Of a DNA stretch of 64,000 nucleotides, positions 41,245-47,258 are shown piece after piece. The notes below the pieces were generated by a model. The model did no database searches. It saw nothing but the letters and a program-made list of their open reading frames with translations, and was not told where the DNA came from. The number at the start of each line of letters is the position of its first letter. The first letter of the stretch is position 1. Position numbers and translations under genes: made by a program. This stretch comes from Sphingobium sp. WTD-1 (lineage in GTDB: Bacteria > Pseudomonadota > Alphaproteobacteria > Sphingomonadales > Sphingomonadaceae): contig NZ_CP119127.1 of NCBI RefSeq assembly GCF_030128825.1, positions 3,348,001-3,412,000 on the forward strand. Reading direction: 5' to 3'.

Positions 41245-41366
41245 GCGAACCTCTCGCGAAAAAATTGTGCGATAACGCAATTTACTGTTTGCAGAATCAA
41301 ATGTGCCTGCTAACAGCCCGCCCACACCGAAGCGATCAGCCACCAAGACTGATCGGCAACGGAATG

Positions 41367-41442
<76 letters not shown>

Positions 41443-41739: not shown

Positions 41740-41767
41740 TTGACACATCATATTTGATGTATAGATT
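41740..41767 (+). promoter_or_regulatory. Promoter with embedded palindromic operator
   Basis: A consensus -35 TTGACA (41740-41745) is followed at 16 bases by TAGATT (41762-41767) as -10. Between them is the perfect palindrome ACATCATATTTGATGT (41745-41760: six-base arms, TATT centre). A repressor bound there would block RNA polymerase. The expected transcription start falls at or one to two bases before the ATG at 41775, so the mRNA may be leaderless. The likely repressor is the helix-turn-helix protein encoded directly downstream. Confidence 0.65.
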
Positions 41768-41774
41768 GCTTTCG

Positions 41775-43088
41775 ATGGCAACCGCTTCCCTTATCACAAA
41801 TGAACGGCAGGAGCGGGAGGTCAGTGCGCTAATCGACCAGATTAGTCAGGCCCTGTCATCCGACCAAGTGCTAAAGCAAATCGTCGATGGCCTACCGCCA
41901 GAAGTCTTGAACGGCGTTCGGCGATCTCTGGTCACTGAACAGCAGGAACTAATCGAGAGCCTAGAAGCCTATCGCACTGCGCAAGGCGGCGATGTGACTG
42001 GACTCAAAGCGCGTGCCGGCAATGACCTAGGAGCATTGCTTGTGGCCGCGAGAGTAGCCAAGGGCTGGAAGCAGAAGGAATTGGCTCGCCGCCTTTTTCT
42101 CCCTGAGCAACAGGTTCAACGATATGAGGCGGAGCGTTACCGCAGCATCAGTCTATCCGGCCTCCAGCGCGTAGCGCGCACGCTTGGTATCAGACTCACA
42201 GCCCACATCGACCAGCCCCTGCAAGAGCCGTGGCTTCCATCTTACGAGATGTCGTCGAGCGAGCTTCAAAAGGTGTTGAAGCACGCACGCGAAAACGGTT
42301 GGCTCGACAAAGCCGACCAATCTGACGACAATGGAATTAGCCAGCTTCGCCGCACCGTCGCGGAGCATGTCGGCGAATATGGAACCCCTTCGTTGCTGCG
42401 GACTGGGTTGAACGTCCATGATCTATCCAAGGACTGGTTCCTGCTGGCGTGGAAGGCACAAGTCACGCGGAGCGCCCTCCGGCTAATTCAGCGAAAGAAG
42501 CCGAAATACCGTCCGCTCAATATGTCGTGGCTTAGTGCGTTGGTTAAGCTGAGCGCGCTCGACGATGGCCCTCTGCGGGCGAAGGAGATGCTTGCCGAAC
42601 AAGGCATCTTACTGGTCATCGAGCCGCAGATCGCCGGAATGCGTGTCGATGGTGCTGCATTTCTGATTGATGAGCATCCAGTGATCGGCCTAACCCTCCG
42701 GCTCGATACCGTGGACAATTTTTGGTTCACGCTGATGCACGAGATGGGGCATGTTATTTTGCACTATCGAACCGGATTGGCGTCCGGGTTCTTCGATGAC
42801 TTTGAACATCTCGAAATCGATGAGATGGAAGAGGAAGCGAACCGCTTTGCCCAAAACATGCTTATTCCCGATGCGGTTTGGAGTAAATCGCCAGCACGCA
42901 TTGCCAAGACTGCGGAGCCAGTCGAACGCTTGGCGAAACAGTTGGAGATAGCGCCTGCGATTATATTCGGTCGCTTGCGTATGGAGAGGCAAAACTACAA
43001 GATATTCTCTGACAAAATTGGGCGGGGCCGTGTTCGAAAGCAGCTCCTCAGCAAAACAGTCGAGGTGAATAATGAACGCGTCATATAG
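41775..43088 (+). CDS. HTH + ImmA/IrrE-type metalloprotease, gop-like
   Basis: A 437-residue protein. Residues ~5-75 form a charged helical region; ~86-140 is an XRE-like helix-turn-helix (LGALLVAARVAKGWKQKELA, then EQQVQRYEAE). The C-terminal part is an ImmA/IrrE-type zinc peptidase with H322-E-M-G-H326 in FTLMHEMGHVILH and the downstream EEEANRFAQNMLIP helix supplying the third ligand. A frame with an extra six codons starts at 41757, but that ATG lies inside the operator, so I start at 41775. It overlaps a beta-family gene by 17 bases. From memory, P4 satellite phage has the same gene pair, gop-beta, where Gop kills the cell unless Beta is present. Homology to Gop itself is inferred. Confidence 0.82.
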   Translation: MATASLITNERQEREVSALIDQISQALSSDQVLKQIVDGLPPEVLNGVRRSLVTEQQELIESLEAYRTAQGGDVTGLKARAGNDLGALLVAARVAKGWKQKELARRLFLPEQQVQRYEAERYRSISLSGLQRVARTLGIRLTAHIDQPLQEPWLPSYEMSSSELQKVLKHARENGWLDKADQSDDNGISQLRRTVAEHVGEYGTPSLLRTGLNVHDLSKDWFLLAWKAQVTRSALRLIQRKKPKYRPLNMSWLSALVKLSALDDGPLRAKEMLAEQGILLVIEPQIAGMRVDGAAFLIDEHPVIGLTLRLDTVDNFWFTLMHEMGHVILHYRTGLASGFFDDFEHLEIDEMEEEANRFAQNMLIPDAVWSKSPARIAKTAEPVERLAKQLEIAPAIIFGRLRMERQNYKIFSDKIGRGRVRKQLLSKTVEVNNERVI

Positions 43089-44211
43089 GCCGGTCTATTG
43101 CAGCGCTCTTCGGATGAAGGCTGGAGAGTTGGAAGGGGTCCGCCAGCTTGCGCCGGACGTTGCAGATAGCGTTCTGCCGCGCTTTATTGTCCCTCCTAAA
43201 AAGGAGCGGAACGACGCAGAGCCACTTCTGATCGAGATGGTCGAGATGCCAGACATCAGCGTGGCACTCGCAGCGCATTGGCGAGACCGCCCCGCGCTCA
43301 TCGACGCCACCTACATCCTGGACGAATATGGCCGGGATCGTCTGGCGGCATGGTTGCCGAATATGTTTCAGCGCGCATGGGCGGCTGGCGTGATTGCGGT
43401 CCCTATCGCTCAGCTCTCAGACTTAGGCAGCGCAGAAATTCAGGCTTTCCGAGCATCCATCCCCGGACAGTCACCGCTCAAATTCGCTGTCTGTGTTTCA
43501 TCAGACGAGTTGGTTGGGGCGGAGTTGCGCACAACCCTCTTGAATATCCTGTTATCGTTGGGGCTAAATCCAGCTGATTGTGCAGTGGTAGCTGACTTTG
43601 CCAGTGCCGAACTCTCGGACCCGATGATAGCCGCCCCGATCATCAGCGGTGCGCTTGAAACCTTGCAGGAGATCGGCGCGTGGCGGCACATCATCTTTCA
43701 GGGCACGCATTATCCCGAAGTGAATCCGGCTAAGGACGGCACTGTCGAAATTTGGCCGCGCAACGAATGGCTGGCGTGGCGCGAAGCGGTGCGGTTTGAT
43801 CCTACGACGGCCGATTATATGATTTTCGGTGACTATGCCGCCGATTGCGCAAAGATGGCCTTCGGAGGTGGGGGTGCCCCGGCCATTCGCCATATCCGTT
43901 ACACGACGCCCGGCGCGTGGCGTGTCCAGCGCGCGGTTAAGGCGGGCAAGGACGGGCAACGGATGCACGGAGTTTATAAGGCGATCGTCGATAGCGGCGA
44001 TTTTGCCGGCGAGGGCTTTTCGAGCGCCGATACCTTCATCGCAAACGGAGCAAAGAATCCGACAGCAGGCCCCGGCAACTCGACCACATGGCGGCAGCTA
44101 AACACGACGCATCACATCACGCAGGTTGTCAGCGACATTGCGAAGGTGCGGGGAATCTCCATCAAAAAGGCTCCAGCATCGGAGGAAACCCAACTCGGCC
44201 TGTTGGTCTAA
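43072..44211 (+). CDS. Beta family protein (P4 Beta-like)
   Basis: A 379-residue soluble protein without signal or membrane segments. Its opening, YRPVYCSALRMKAGELEGVR then DSVLPRFIVPPKK, follows the pattern of the 'beta family' proteins (Y-x-P...K-x-GE...L-P), named after satellite phage P4 Beta. A TIM-barrel-like series of strands follows, with DATYILDEYG and FGDYAADCAKMAF. The ATG has GAGGTG eight bases upstream and lies inside the end of the preceding metalloprotease gene, so the two are coupled. In P4, Beta prevents killing by Gop; the same antitoxin-like role here is inference. The biochemical activity is not known. Confidence 0.75.
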   Translation: MNASYRPVYCSALRMKAGELEGVRQLAPDVADSVLPRFIVPPKKERNDAEPLLIEMVEMPDISVALAAHWRDRPALIDATYILDEYGRDRLAAWLPNMFQRAWAAGVIAVPIAQLSDLGSAEIQAFRASIPGQSPLKFAVCVSSDELVGAELRTTLLNILLSLGLNPADCAVVADFASAELSDPMIAAPIISGALETLQEIGAWRHIIFQGTHYPEVNPAKDGTVEIWPRNEWLAWREAVRFDPTTADYMIFGDYAADCAKMAFGGGGAPAIRHIRYTTPGAWRVQRAVKAGKDGQRMHGVYKAIVDSGDFAGEGFSSADTFIANGAKNPTAGPGNSTTWRQLNTTHHITQVVSDIAKVRGISIKKAPASEETQLGLLV

Positions 44212-44561: not shown

Positions 44562-44963
44562 TCATCCGAAGATCCCGCAAGTTGCAGTAACTTTCCGGGA
44601 AGCCTCGGGGCCATCGCTCATGAAGAATACATCGGCGTCGATGACGGCGAACCACTGATCTCCGGTCATCCCTCCAAGCCCATTGCGGGCATTTACAAAG
44701 CCGCAAACGGCCTCGCTTCCATCCATATGAACCACCTTGACACCGGTGAACGCAGCGCTGTCCGGTTCACGCAGCCTCACCTTCACCAATGTCTCTGCGA
44801 CGCGGATTGCCGGTTTATCGGCATCAAGCCGCGCCTGCTTGGCAACAACTTCCTTCCCCTCCGGTGTTGCATCATAGAGGAGTTTCAAACCCATAGTCCC
44901 GATGCCAAGCACAAGTGCAAAAACCGCGATCCCTTTCAGTGCATTCTTGGTCCGGTTGCTCAT
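44562..44963 (-). CDS. Membrane-anchored hypothetical protein
   Basis: A 133-residue protein with one N-terminal membrane helix (about 10-30: GIAVFALVLGIGTMGLKLLY) and a soluble domain outside. The domain has the pattern LREPDSAAFTGVKVV, AVCGFVNARNGLGGMTGDQW and a second Cys near the end (ATCGIFG), a pattern seen in small phage, plasmid and island proteins of unknown function. AAGGAG six bases before the ATG at 44963 is a strong ribosome site. It is transcribed toward beta, as cII is in P4, but I see no sequence basis to call it CII. Confidence 0.7.
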   Translation of the reverse strand: MSNRTKNALKGIAVFALVLGIGTMGLKLLYDATPEGKEVVAKQARLDADKPAIRVAETLVKVRLREPDSAAFTGVKVVHMDGSEAVCGFVNARNGLGGMTGDQWFAVIDADVFFMSDGPEASRKVTATCGIFG

Positions 44964-45046
44964 CAATATCTCCTTCTGAGCAGGCGGAGATACATGGAGG
45001 CGGTTAAAAATGGGTATGATCGTCCGTGGACTGAAAGTCCTCTTCC

Positions 45047-45289
45047 ATGTGCTTTCGCGCAGTGGCCCAGAACGAACTCAAGGAACTTGGCAGGCGCATC
45101 AGGCAGCGCCGTAAAAGCCTTGGCTGGAGTCAAGAACAGTTCGCGCTGGAAGCGGAGATCGACCGATCCTACGTCGGCGGTGTCGAGCGTGGTCAACGCA
45201 ACCTGACGTTCACGGTGCTTTGTCGGCTGTGTGCCGCGTTGGGGTGTGATGTGGCGGCGCTTACTGGAAATTTGCCCACAGAGAGCTAA
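45047..45289 (+). CDS. Small XRE-family helix-turn-helix protein
   Basis: An 80-residue protein that is nearly all DNA-binding domain: LGRRIRQRRKSLGWSQEQFA, EIDRSYVGGVERGQRNLT, LCRLCAALGCDVAAL. A P22 C2/Cro-like repressor fold is clear. It is divergent from the membrane-anchored protein, with 83 bases between, and a small hairpin (GGACT/AGTCC, 45028-45040) precedes its start. The ribosome site is weak; GTG at 45062 is an alternative. It may control the integrase side of the element or act as excisionase. Confidence 0.8.
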   Translation: MCFRAVAQNELKELGRRIRQRRKSLGWSQEQFALEAEIDRSYVGGVERGQRNLTFTVLCRLCAALGCDVAALTGNLPTES

Positions 45290-45391: not shown

Positions 45392-45467
45392 TGGTGGATC
45401 GTCTTGGGCTCGAACCAAGGACCGGACGATTAAGAGTCGTCTGCTCTACCAACTGAGCTAACGATCC
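45392..45467 (-). tRNA. Island-borne tRNA-Lys(CTT), copy 1
   Basis: A complete 76-base cloverleaf with encoded CCA on the minus strand. Acceptor GGATCGT/ACGATCC, D stem GCTC/GAGC, anticodon stem GACGA/TCGTC, loop CTCTTAA (anticodon CTT) and T arm CTTGG-TTCGAGC-CCAAG. All stems pair perfectly. Relative to the host tRNA-Lys, four acceptor pairs and two anticodon-stem pairs are changed with compensation, while the D arm, anticodon loop and T arm are identical. It is not a by-product of integration. Confidence 0.95.
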
Positions 45468-45511: not shown

Positions 45512-45587
45512 TGGTGGATCGTCTTGGGCTCGAACCAAGGACCAGACGATTAAGAGTCGTCTGCTCTACCAACTGAGCTAACGATCC
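45512..45587 (-). tRNA. Island-borne tRNA-Lys(CTT), copy 2
   Basis: Identical to the copy at 45392-45467 except for one variable-loop base (T in place of C on the tRNA strand). Forty-four bases separate the copies, and both are read in the integrase direction. Copy 2 is promoter-proximal. All stems are intact and the CCA is encoded. Confidence 0.95.
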
Positions 45588-45644: not shown

Positions 45645-46991
45645 TCATGTTTTTTTGCCCCCTGTCGCGATCGCTTCCGCGCGATCTTTCTGAATGGCTG
45701 CGTGAGCGGCAAGCCTGATCGGATCAAGGTGCTCTGCCCAGATGCGGAGCGCCGCCTTCTTCTCGGCGAAATAGTCGTGGCAATCGTAATTGCCACGCAC
45801 GCCACCGATAATGTGGTTGATCACCCGCTCGACCGTATCGGACAGAATAAGGGGGCGATCGTGCCCGTCCCGCAGCCCTCGCATCCCCGTCGCCAGTGTC
45901 CGGCGCAAGTCATGGACGGTGAACCTCTCCATCTTCTTGCGCTCCTTGATCGCGTACTTTTGGCACGCGTCGTTCAGTGCATTCATGGGCTTGGTGAAGG
46001 TAGTAAGCTCCTTCGACGTATCCTTGCCCTTTTCCACCACCTCACCTTGTCGCCAAGAATAAGGAGCAGGCCACACATATTTGTAGTCACCGGTGAGACA
46101 CTTGCGCTTCCGCAGAATCGCTGTGACCGTGTCCGGCATCCACAAGAGCAGGTCTAACCCGTTCTTGATGCGGTCACCGCTGATCATGATTGTGTTGTCC
46201 TCGAAGCGCACCTCCTTCCACGTCAACCCAGCCGCTTCGCTCCGGCGGAGGCCCGTGTAGAGGATCACGGTCAGCATCTCGGCGAAGGTGTCGCGAGCCA
46301 AATAGGTTCCTTTGAAGAACATGCCGATCTCGTAATTCGTCAAATAGCGGCGGCGCTTGTTCTCGTCAGCGAGGCATACCAGATCGATTGCCGGGTTCGC
46401 TTTCAGGCCGGTCACTCCTCGGCCGCGAGTCACACCCCACTTCCACCACCGGGCGATCAGCGCCTTGAGCCGGTTCGATGCCGGCCCCTTCCCTTCCGAG
46501 AACTTCTTCTGCACGATCGCTGCCAGATCGTCATAGGTGATGGTGTCAATCTGACGCTCACCAAGCGTCGGCTTGATCTCTCGGTTGTAGGTGGTCCGCT
46601 TCTCCTTGGCGGTCTTTCGGGTCTCCCCTTCTTGCGCCATATACTGGTCAAACATCCAGTCGCAGGTGAAGGCGGCGCGAGGATCGATTGCTGGCTCGGA
46701 CGGCTCCTCGTTGGGTATGATGAAGCTCATCTCCCTCCCCTCGATCTTCGCGGTGTTGATCTCAGTCGCGCGCTCGCGGGCAGTGGCAAGGTCCATGCCA
46801 CCAGTGACCAACCATTGGCCAAGCGTGATCGTCTTCGTTTCGCCATTTAGCTTACCGTGCCACGACCATATTTTGCGGCCTGTAGGGTGGACGGTGAGGA
46901 GGAGATTGGCCACAACGGAGTCGGTGAAACGCTGTTTCTTATCGGCCGGTTTGACCCCCTTTATGAAGACAGCGGTGAGTTGCTTTTTCAC
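45645..46991 (-). CDS. Tyrosine-type site-specific integrase
   Basis: Recombinase of 448 residues that inserts the element into tRNA-Lys. It has an N-terminal DUF4102-like arm-binding domain (about 1-90), a core-binding SAM-like domain (about 105-190) and a catalytic domain from about 215. The catalytic residues are R249 (YTGLRRSEAAGL), H360-x-x-R363 (VHDLRRTLATGM), H393 (INHIIGG) and nucleophile Y407 (HDYFAEKKAAL). I prefer GTG at 46991, ten bases after AAGGAG, over a GTG 27 codons upstream. It reads inward from the right end, with its stop next to the two tRNA genes. Confidence 0.93.
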   Translation of the reverse strand: MKKQLTAVFIKGVKPADKKQRFTDSVVANLLLTVHPTGRKIWSWHGKLNGETKTITLGQWLVTGGMDLATARERATEINTAKIEGREMSFIIPNEEPSEPAIDPRAAFTCDWMFDQYMAQEGETRKTAKEKRTTYNREIKPTLGERQIDTITYDDLAAIVQKKFSEGKGPASNRLKALIARWWKWGVTRGRGVTGLKANPAIDLVCLADENKRRRYLTNYEIGMFFKGTYLARDTFAEMLTVILYTGLRRSEAAGLTWKEVRFEDNTIMISGDRIKNGLDLLLWMPDTVTAILRKRKCLTGDYKYVWPAPYSWRQGEVVEKGKDTSKELTTFTKPMNALNDACQKYAIKERKKMERFTVHDLRRTLATGMRGLRDGHDRPLILSDTVERVINHIIGGVRGNYDCHDYFAEKKAALRIWAEHLDPIRLAAHAAIQKDRAEAIATGGKKT

Positions 46992-47213
46992 GCTGGTAGC
47001 GCTCCTTGATGACGCAGATTTCCACCTCGCTTCTAAGCCACCGTAGATCGCGCCACAAGGACACTGCCTCACTCCTGCCTCACTTTTCCACGTTACGGAG
47101 CGTTATACTGGGTTACAGCATGAGACAGAAAAATGGAGAAAAGTCCCATTTGCCCTCAGATTTTATGTAACATTTTGATCCATGCGGTTTCAGGCTGTAA
47201 CGACATCTTGTCG

Positions 47214-47258
47214 CTCTTAATCAGCGGGTCCTTGGTTCGAGCCCAAGTGCGTCCACCA
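47214..47258 (+). repeat. attR: duplicate 3' half of tRNA-Lys
   Basis: Exact 45-base copy of 41398-41442. It starts in the anticodon loop, so it cannot make a tRNA; it marks the right end of the element and is the remains of the original host tRNA 3' half. Confidence 0.95.

Follow-up and report, generated by a model that had tools for sequence, protein, structure and literature searches.

A PD-lambda-2-type protease-beta gene pair without a toxin-like partner in a tRNA-Lys element of Sphingobium sp. WTD-1

Sphingobium sp. WTD-1 carries two overlapping genes, here called B and C, on a 5.8-kb integrase-bearing element that is bounded by 45-bp repeats of the 3' end of tRNA-Lys(CTT). The element lies within a stretch of 64,000 nucleotides (positions 3,348,001-3,412,000 of NZ_CP119127.1), referred to as the window; all coordinates are window positions (Table 1). 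B combines a helix-turn-helix (HTH) domain (HTH_3, 8.3e-08, residues 91-142) with a Peptidase_M78 domain of the ImmA/IrrE type (1.1e-13, residues 279-392), and C matches the beta family (Beta_protein, PF14350) at 1.9e-48 over residues 9-353 of 379, the two frames sharing 17 bp (43072-43088). Both identities and the overlap had been proposed in a first-pass annotation and are confirmed here. Very probably, B and C form a PD-lambda-2-type pair of B and beta that lacks the A gene of that system and is housed in a tRNA-Lys element. We further propose, with a probability of about 0.45, that the pair would be a two-gene variant within the PD-lambda-2/beta phage-defence systems, free of a toxin-like gene, in which an autorepressor-protease releases a beta effector.

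An alignment of relatives favours the ATG at 41775 as the start of B, whereas the program-made list of open reading frames (ORFs) opens the frame at a TTG at 41754. The HExxH motif (H322, E323 and H326; codons at 42738-42752) is kept in all 40 relatives of the alignment and in all 88 ORFs above 300 amino acids (aa) that match the B profile. Residues Y9, D254 and H348 of beta, a protein predicted to fold as a TIM barrel, are invariant in 54 relatives, beta of satellite phage P4 among them, and an alignment profile headed by C (A3) aligns with P4 beta at an hhalign probability of 97.9%. The closest B among the best 80 of at least 552 confirmed loci, found by scanning genome contigs with B and sorted by profiles, belongs to an uncultured Erythrobacter (L073, 80% identical). 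Between these two loci, nonsynonymous (pN) and synonymous (pS) differences amount to 0.114 and 0.852 for B (pN/pS ~0.13) and to 0.136 and 0.812 for C (~0.17).

Judged by profile matches, the nearest known system is PD-lambda-2 of E. coli, which is described as a HigB-like A, an Xre-peptidase B and a P4-related C and is listed among abortive-infection defence systems (PMC9519451). The comparison was made through PADLOC models, not the E. coli protein sequences: B matches PD-Lambda-2_B (PDLC03982) at 1.6e-72 and C matches PD-Lambda-2_C (PDLC03984) at 3.3e-30, an HTH-peptidase gene adjoining a beta-like gene in both systems. They differ in that the best match of B covers model positions 94-398 of 402, leaving the first 93 outside, and in that A, which lies upstream in PD-lambda-2, is missing here. 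The gap before B contains no ORF longer than 58 aa, and thus no HigB-like A, and the PADLOC model of A (PDLC03981, 94 positions), which was matched in one of 14 control genomes, has no match in the genome of WTD-1. B also matches the models of RmrA (2e-13 and weaker) and capP (1.6e-10), far less strongly than PD-Lambda-2_B. With RosmerTA (RmrTA), CapH/CapP and ImmR/ImmA the locus shares the combination of an HTH with an ImmA/IrrE protease, but here the partner is beta, and repressor and protease are joined in a single chain; RmrT, a diverse group, had no match in the four element proteins scanned, small ORFs lying outside that scan. In CapH/CapP and DdrO/IrrE, the protease cleaves an HTH repressor. 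The same relation is described for ImmA and its HTH repressor ImmR in PMC10440598.

The best 80 loci fall into two classes. In the two-gene class (25 loci, L073-L097, 40-80% identity), B is accompanied by beta only: beta is present in 24/25 (the sequence of L074 ends after B), DUF6932 in none of the 24 loci with sufficient upstream sequence (L087 excluded), and sce7726 in none of the 23 with sufficient downstream sequence (L074 and L093 excluded). The four-gene class (55 loci, L098-L152, 30-38% identity) has the order DUF6932-B-beta-sce7726, with DUF6932 in 55/55 (a fragment only in L149), beta in 53/55 (absent from L141 and L149, partial in some others) and a convergent sce7726 in 49/55 (exceptions L109, L122, L141, L145, L146 and L149, of which the sequences of L122 and L145 stop near beta). 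Among plasmid loci, L005-L009 are of the two-gene and L010 and L011 of the four-gene type (Pfam DUF6932 at 1.8e-27 and 3.1e-25, respectively); PADLOC PDC-M63A matches both DUF6932 proteins scanned. Literature searches yielded no published name for the four-gene arrangement. It shares with the window the architecture of B, beta and, in part, the palindrome described below, whereas the window class has neither its first nor its last gene and forms a separate clade. A branch with a Shimodaira-Hasegawa-like approximate likelihood ratio (SH-aLRT) of 97 sets the two-gene class apart in the B tree (32 rows, one from a separate search), as does a branch with a support of 85 in the beta tree (29 rows); both trees come from quick, short searches without bootstrap, and the outgroup of B is not a single clade, so that the two classes may differ by loss or by gain of the flanking genes. 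Split or shortened beta frames occur at L009:3989-5097, L133:8235-9364 and L109:8223-8726, so that some copies of the module seem to be broken or misread.

How might B and C be expressed? A promoter-like sequence precedes B, and transcription from it would start at about the ATG of B and give a leaderless mRNA. Use of one promoter by both genes is plausible and not more, because the scan detected six sites of this kind over 4.2 kb, where a mean of 2.1 (sd 1.5) is expected by chance. The promoter hexamers are overlapped by a palindrome, a candidate operator, whose motif of 20 bp (ACMCAWC-N6-GWTGKGT, with 12 or more of the 14 half-site positions matched) occurs at most 120 nt upstream of B in 31/31 two-gene loci, including the window, with 10 other sites in 451 kb; this count is not independent, as the motif was derived from the two-gene loci themselves. 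In four-gene loci the palindrome is found in 35/57, 380-700 nt upstream of B and near the start of DUF6932, with 7 other sites in 735 kb. Lowering the threshold to 11/14 gives 31/31 two-gene loci (84 sites elsewhere) and 40/57 four-gene loci (148 elsewhere), and an earlier, stricter pattern gave 18/31 and 18/57. On the simple reading of these positions, B would repress its own transcription through the palindrome.

Within the bacterial family of the window, beta was found in 16 of 298 genomes, and an M78 protein adjoins it in 15 of these 16. Besides the window they comprise four four-gene loci, two of the order DUF6932-B-beta (no sce7726 within the stretch examined), one beta-sce7726 locus (L172, no M78 seen) and eight loci with a short M78 protein (L173-L180). 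The last begin with a protein of 130-164 aa that contains one or more hydrophobic stretches; a stand-alone M78 protein (157-175 aa) and beta come next, followed in 3/8 by sce7726 (the sequence of L180 ends soon after beta); the palindrome was not found next to these eight operons. At L177, the one of the eight scanned with PADLOC, the protease matches capP (6.3e-28), beta matches the P4 beta model (1.6e-38) and the gene after it the P4 cII model (3.6e-35), and the small hydrophobic protein has no gop match. Because of these matches, L173-L180 may represent a P4-type system to which a protease has been added.

The element has the hallmarks of tRNA-targeted integrative elements: it encodes an integrase, is bounded by direct repeats of a tRNA 3' end, and is missing from the corresponding site of a relative. 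In that relative (G400, L048), the left flank, 97.5% identical, leads through two tandem tRNA-Lys genes directly to the right flank (95%), which identifies the site as empty. L047 and L049 likewise have two tandem tRNA-Lys genes, but the sequence immediately downstream differs; thus all three loci have two native tRNA-Lys(CTT) genes in tandem, where the window has one native gene and the two of the element. The latter two share 99% identity and are 83-87% identical to the host gene, and the only match of this 197-bp pair at E <= 1e-30 among 246 genomes of the order is the window's own genome. The flanking DNA aligns with the Erythrobacter (Sphingomonadales) record L073, in which B-C adjoins tRNA-Lys(CTT) and the rodA-side neighbour that the window also has, in opposite orientation, and which has an ORF of the phrog_2320 type near B (L073:6560-6898, a weak match of 3e-06). 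In another relative (G416), a different segment, with genes for Fic, an integrase piece, an IS21-type protein, PP2C and a kinase, is flanked on each side by a copy of the element's 45-bp repeat (L153:2425-11433), so the tRNA-Lys site looks like a hot spot. Elsewhere in the WTD-1 genome, 54 nt that match the 3' end of tRNA-Lys (G000:C1:497506-497559, 96%) are possibly another att site.

Table 1. Features of the B-C locus and of the element that carries it (window positions).
Feature	Positions	Strand	Evidence
Host tRNA-Lys(CTT), integration target	41366..41441	+	ARAGORN; empty site in relative
attL, first copy of 45-bp direct repeat (tRNA-Lys 3' end)	41397..41441	+	pair 100% identical
Promoter-like TTGACA-16-TAGATT	41740..41767	+	promoter scan
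Palindrome ACACATCATATTTGATGTAT overlapping the promoter hexamers, candidate operator	41743..41762	+	motif in 31/31 two-gene and 35/57 four-gene loci
B, 437 aa: helical hairpin, HTH (residues 82-146), M78 metalloprotease	41775..43088	+	
C, 379 aa, beta-family protein, predicted TIM barrel	43072..44211	+	Beta_protein profile; PD-Lambda-2_C model
Small ORF, 134 aa, one hydrophobic stretch, phrog_2320-like, cargo	44562..44966	-	
Small HTH_3 regulator of the element	45047..45289	+	
tRNA-Lys(CTT) copy 1, element-borne	45392..45467	-	ARAGORN
tRNA-Lys(CTT) copy 2, element-borne	45512..45587	-	ARAGORN
Tyrosine integrase	45645..47072	-	Phage_integrase 1.6e-09; phrog_1 3e-37
attR, second copy of 45-bp repeat	47214..47258	+	pair 100% identical

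How might such a pair act? A killing or defence module, the class named by the first-pass annotation, remains the most likely one. We envision a scenario whereby B is a single-chain repressor-protease, the HTH of which would sit on the palindrome over its own promoter and keep B and C at a low level. A signal arising from phage infection would activate the M78 domain, which would then inactivate the HTH of B itself, or another target, so that repression is lifted. Beta would accumulate, act as an effector through its conserved TIM-barrel pocket, and stop the infected cell, resulting in abortive infection. Several points weigh against this scenario. As a binding site for B, the palindrome is a motif, a candidate operator, and 22 of the 57 four-gene loci lack it at the 12/14 threshold; the circularity of the two-gene count belongs here as well. 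The target of the protease may be another protein. Moreover, B may itself be the killer rather than a mere regulator, given that B of PD-lambda-2 is toxic by itself and that A relieves this toxicity (PMC9519451). P4 Beta, in turn, is treated as a likely antitoxin of Gop (PMC9122126). The DUF6932 partner of the sister four-gene class is matched by the A model of PDC-M63AB, and this candidate system conferred no defence in one native host (PMC12409345). Finally, a search of the WTD-1 genome found no DUF6932 or sce7726 elsewhere, which is weak evidence, because the DUF6932 search was positive in 0/14 controls and sce7726 was searched for without a positive control.

The main rival is a two-gene toxin-antitoxin system, in which the protease B would be the toxin and beta would neutralise it without A, until phage infection disturbs the balance between them and lets B kill the cell. 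The toxicity of PD-lambda-2 B just mentioned fits this idea, as does that of P4 Gop in the absence of Beta (PMC9122126), and the genes of B and beta abut or overlap, as those of toxin-antitoxin pairs do, in all 30 two-gene loci that have both (gaps of at most 14 bp; overlaps of at most 62 bp, an upper bound, since the earliest start open to beta was used). However, the beta-like C of PD-lambda-2 is dispensable for neutralising B and yet required against lambda vir (PMC9519451), and a predicted TIM barrel of 379 aa with conserved polar residues would be unusual for an antitoxin. We consider this rival unlikely, if deserving of serious attention. Alternatively, B-C might serve to stabilise the element, as an addiction or immunity cassette, phage defence being secondary or absent. 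Consistently, the pair travels as cargo on a small element with an integrase, and the HTH and M78 parts of B resemble ImmR- and IrrE-type regulators. Yet an integrase of the window type accompanies just 4/25 two-gene loci and 0/5 plasmid loci within the stretches compared (other recombinase types were not sought), and both PD-lambda-2 (PMC9519451) and gop-beta-cII (PMC9122126) were shown to block phages, which makes this maintenance reading rather improbable.

Is the module a relative of gop-beta-cII of satellite phage P4, B standing in for Gop, as the first-pass annotation had it? The homology of beta to P4 beta speaks for this reading, and the pair does sit outside any P4-like phage, in an integrase-bearing island. 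B, however, is not related to Gop: P4 Gop has 133 aa and no Pfam match above cut-off, the PADLOC gop model recognises it (4.8e-70) but not B, and BLASTP aligns B with it over 28 residues only (E 0.011). A gene order like that of P4 had also been pointed out, and a leftward small ORF (44562-44966) indeed follows C; sequence comparison finds it unrelated to P4 cII, which is annotated as sce7726, and the sce7726 profile that matches P4 cII has no match at the window locus, so that the parallel looks accidental. The window thus has neither gop nor cII, an HTH-M78 protein precedes beta, and the PADLOC model that recognises C is PD-Lambda-2_C, the P4 beta model giving no match at E <= 1. Loci nearer to the P4 type do exist in the family, and they are built differently, from a small hydrophobic protein, a stand-alone M78 protein and beta, some with sce7726. 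A P4-type module is accordingly very improbable. That B-C is a functionless remnant of a decayed four-gene locus, as the two additional genes of the sister loci might suggest, is hardly credible in view of the strong purifying selection on B and C, the intact HExxH, the conserved palindrome and the spread of the two-gene clade across many alphaproteobacterial records, one betaproteobacterial record and one metagenome-assembled genome labelled actinobacterial.

What would a two-gene defence module imply for the beta group as a whole? Its partners range from a hydrophobic small protein through HigB and DUF6932 to none, and this variation amounts to a natural test of which component is indispensable. 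The role of beta is itself a matter of contrast, P4 Beta being read as the likely antitoxin of Gop (PMC9122126) and its PD-lambda-2 relative being needed for defence and not for neutralisation (PMC9519451). A natural two-gene form without a toxin-like gene, with a candidate operator and with invariant polar residues, renders this role directly testable. Conceivably, although we regard this extension as doubtful, the constant core of the group would be protease plus beta and not toxin plus beta. Beta would then be a TIM-barrel enzyme and antiviral effector that is freed when the one-chain repressor-protease leaves its operator, Gop, HigB, DUF6932 and sce7726 would be exchangeable add-ons, and the two-gene form would be the minimal system.
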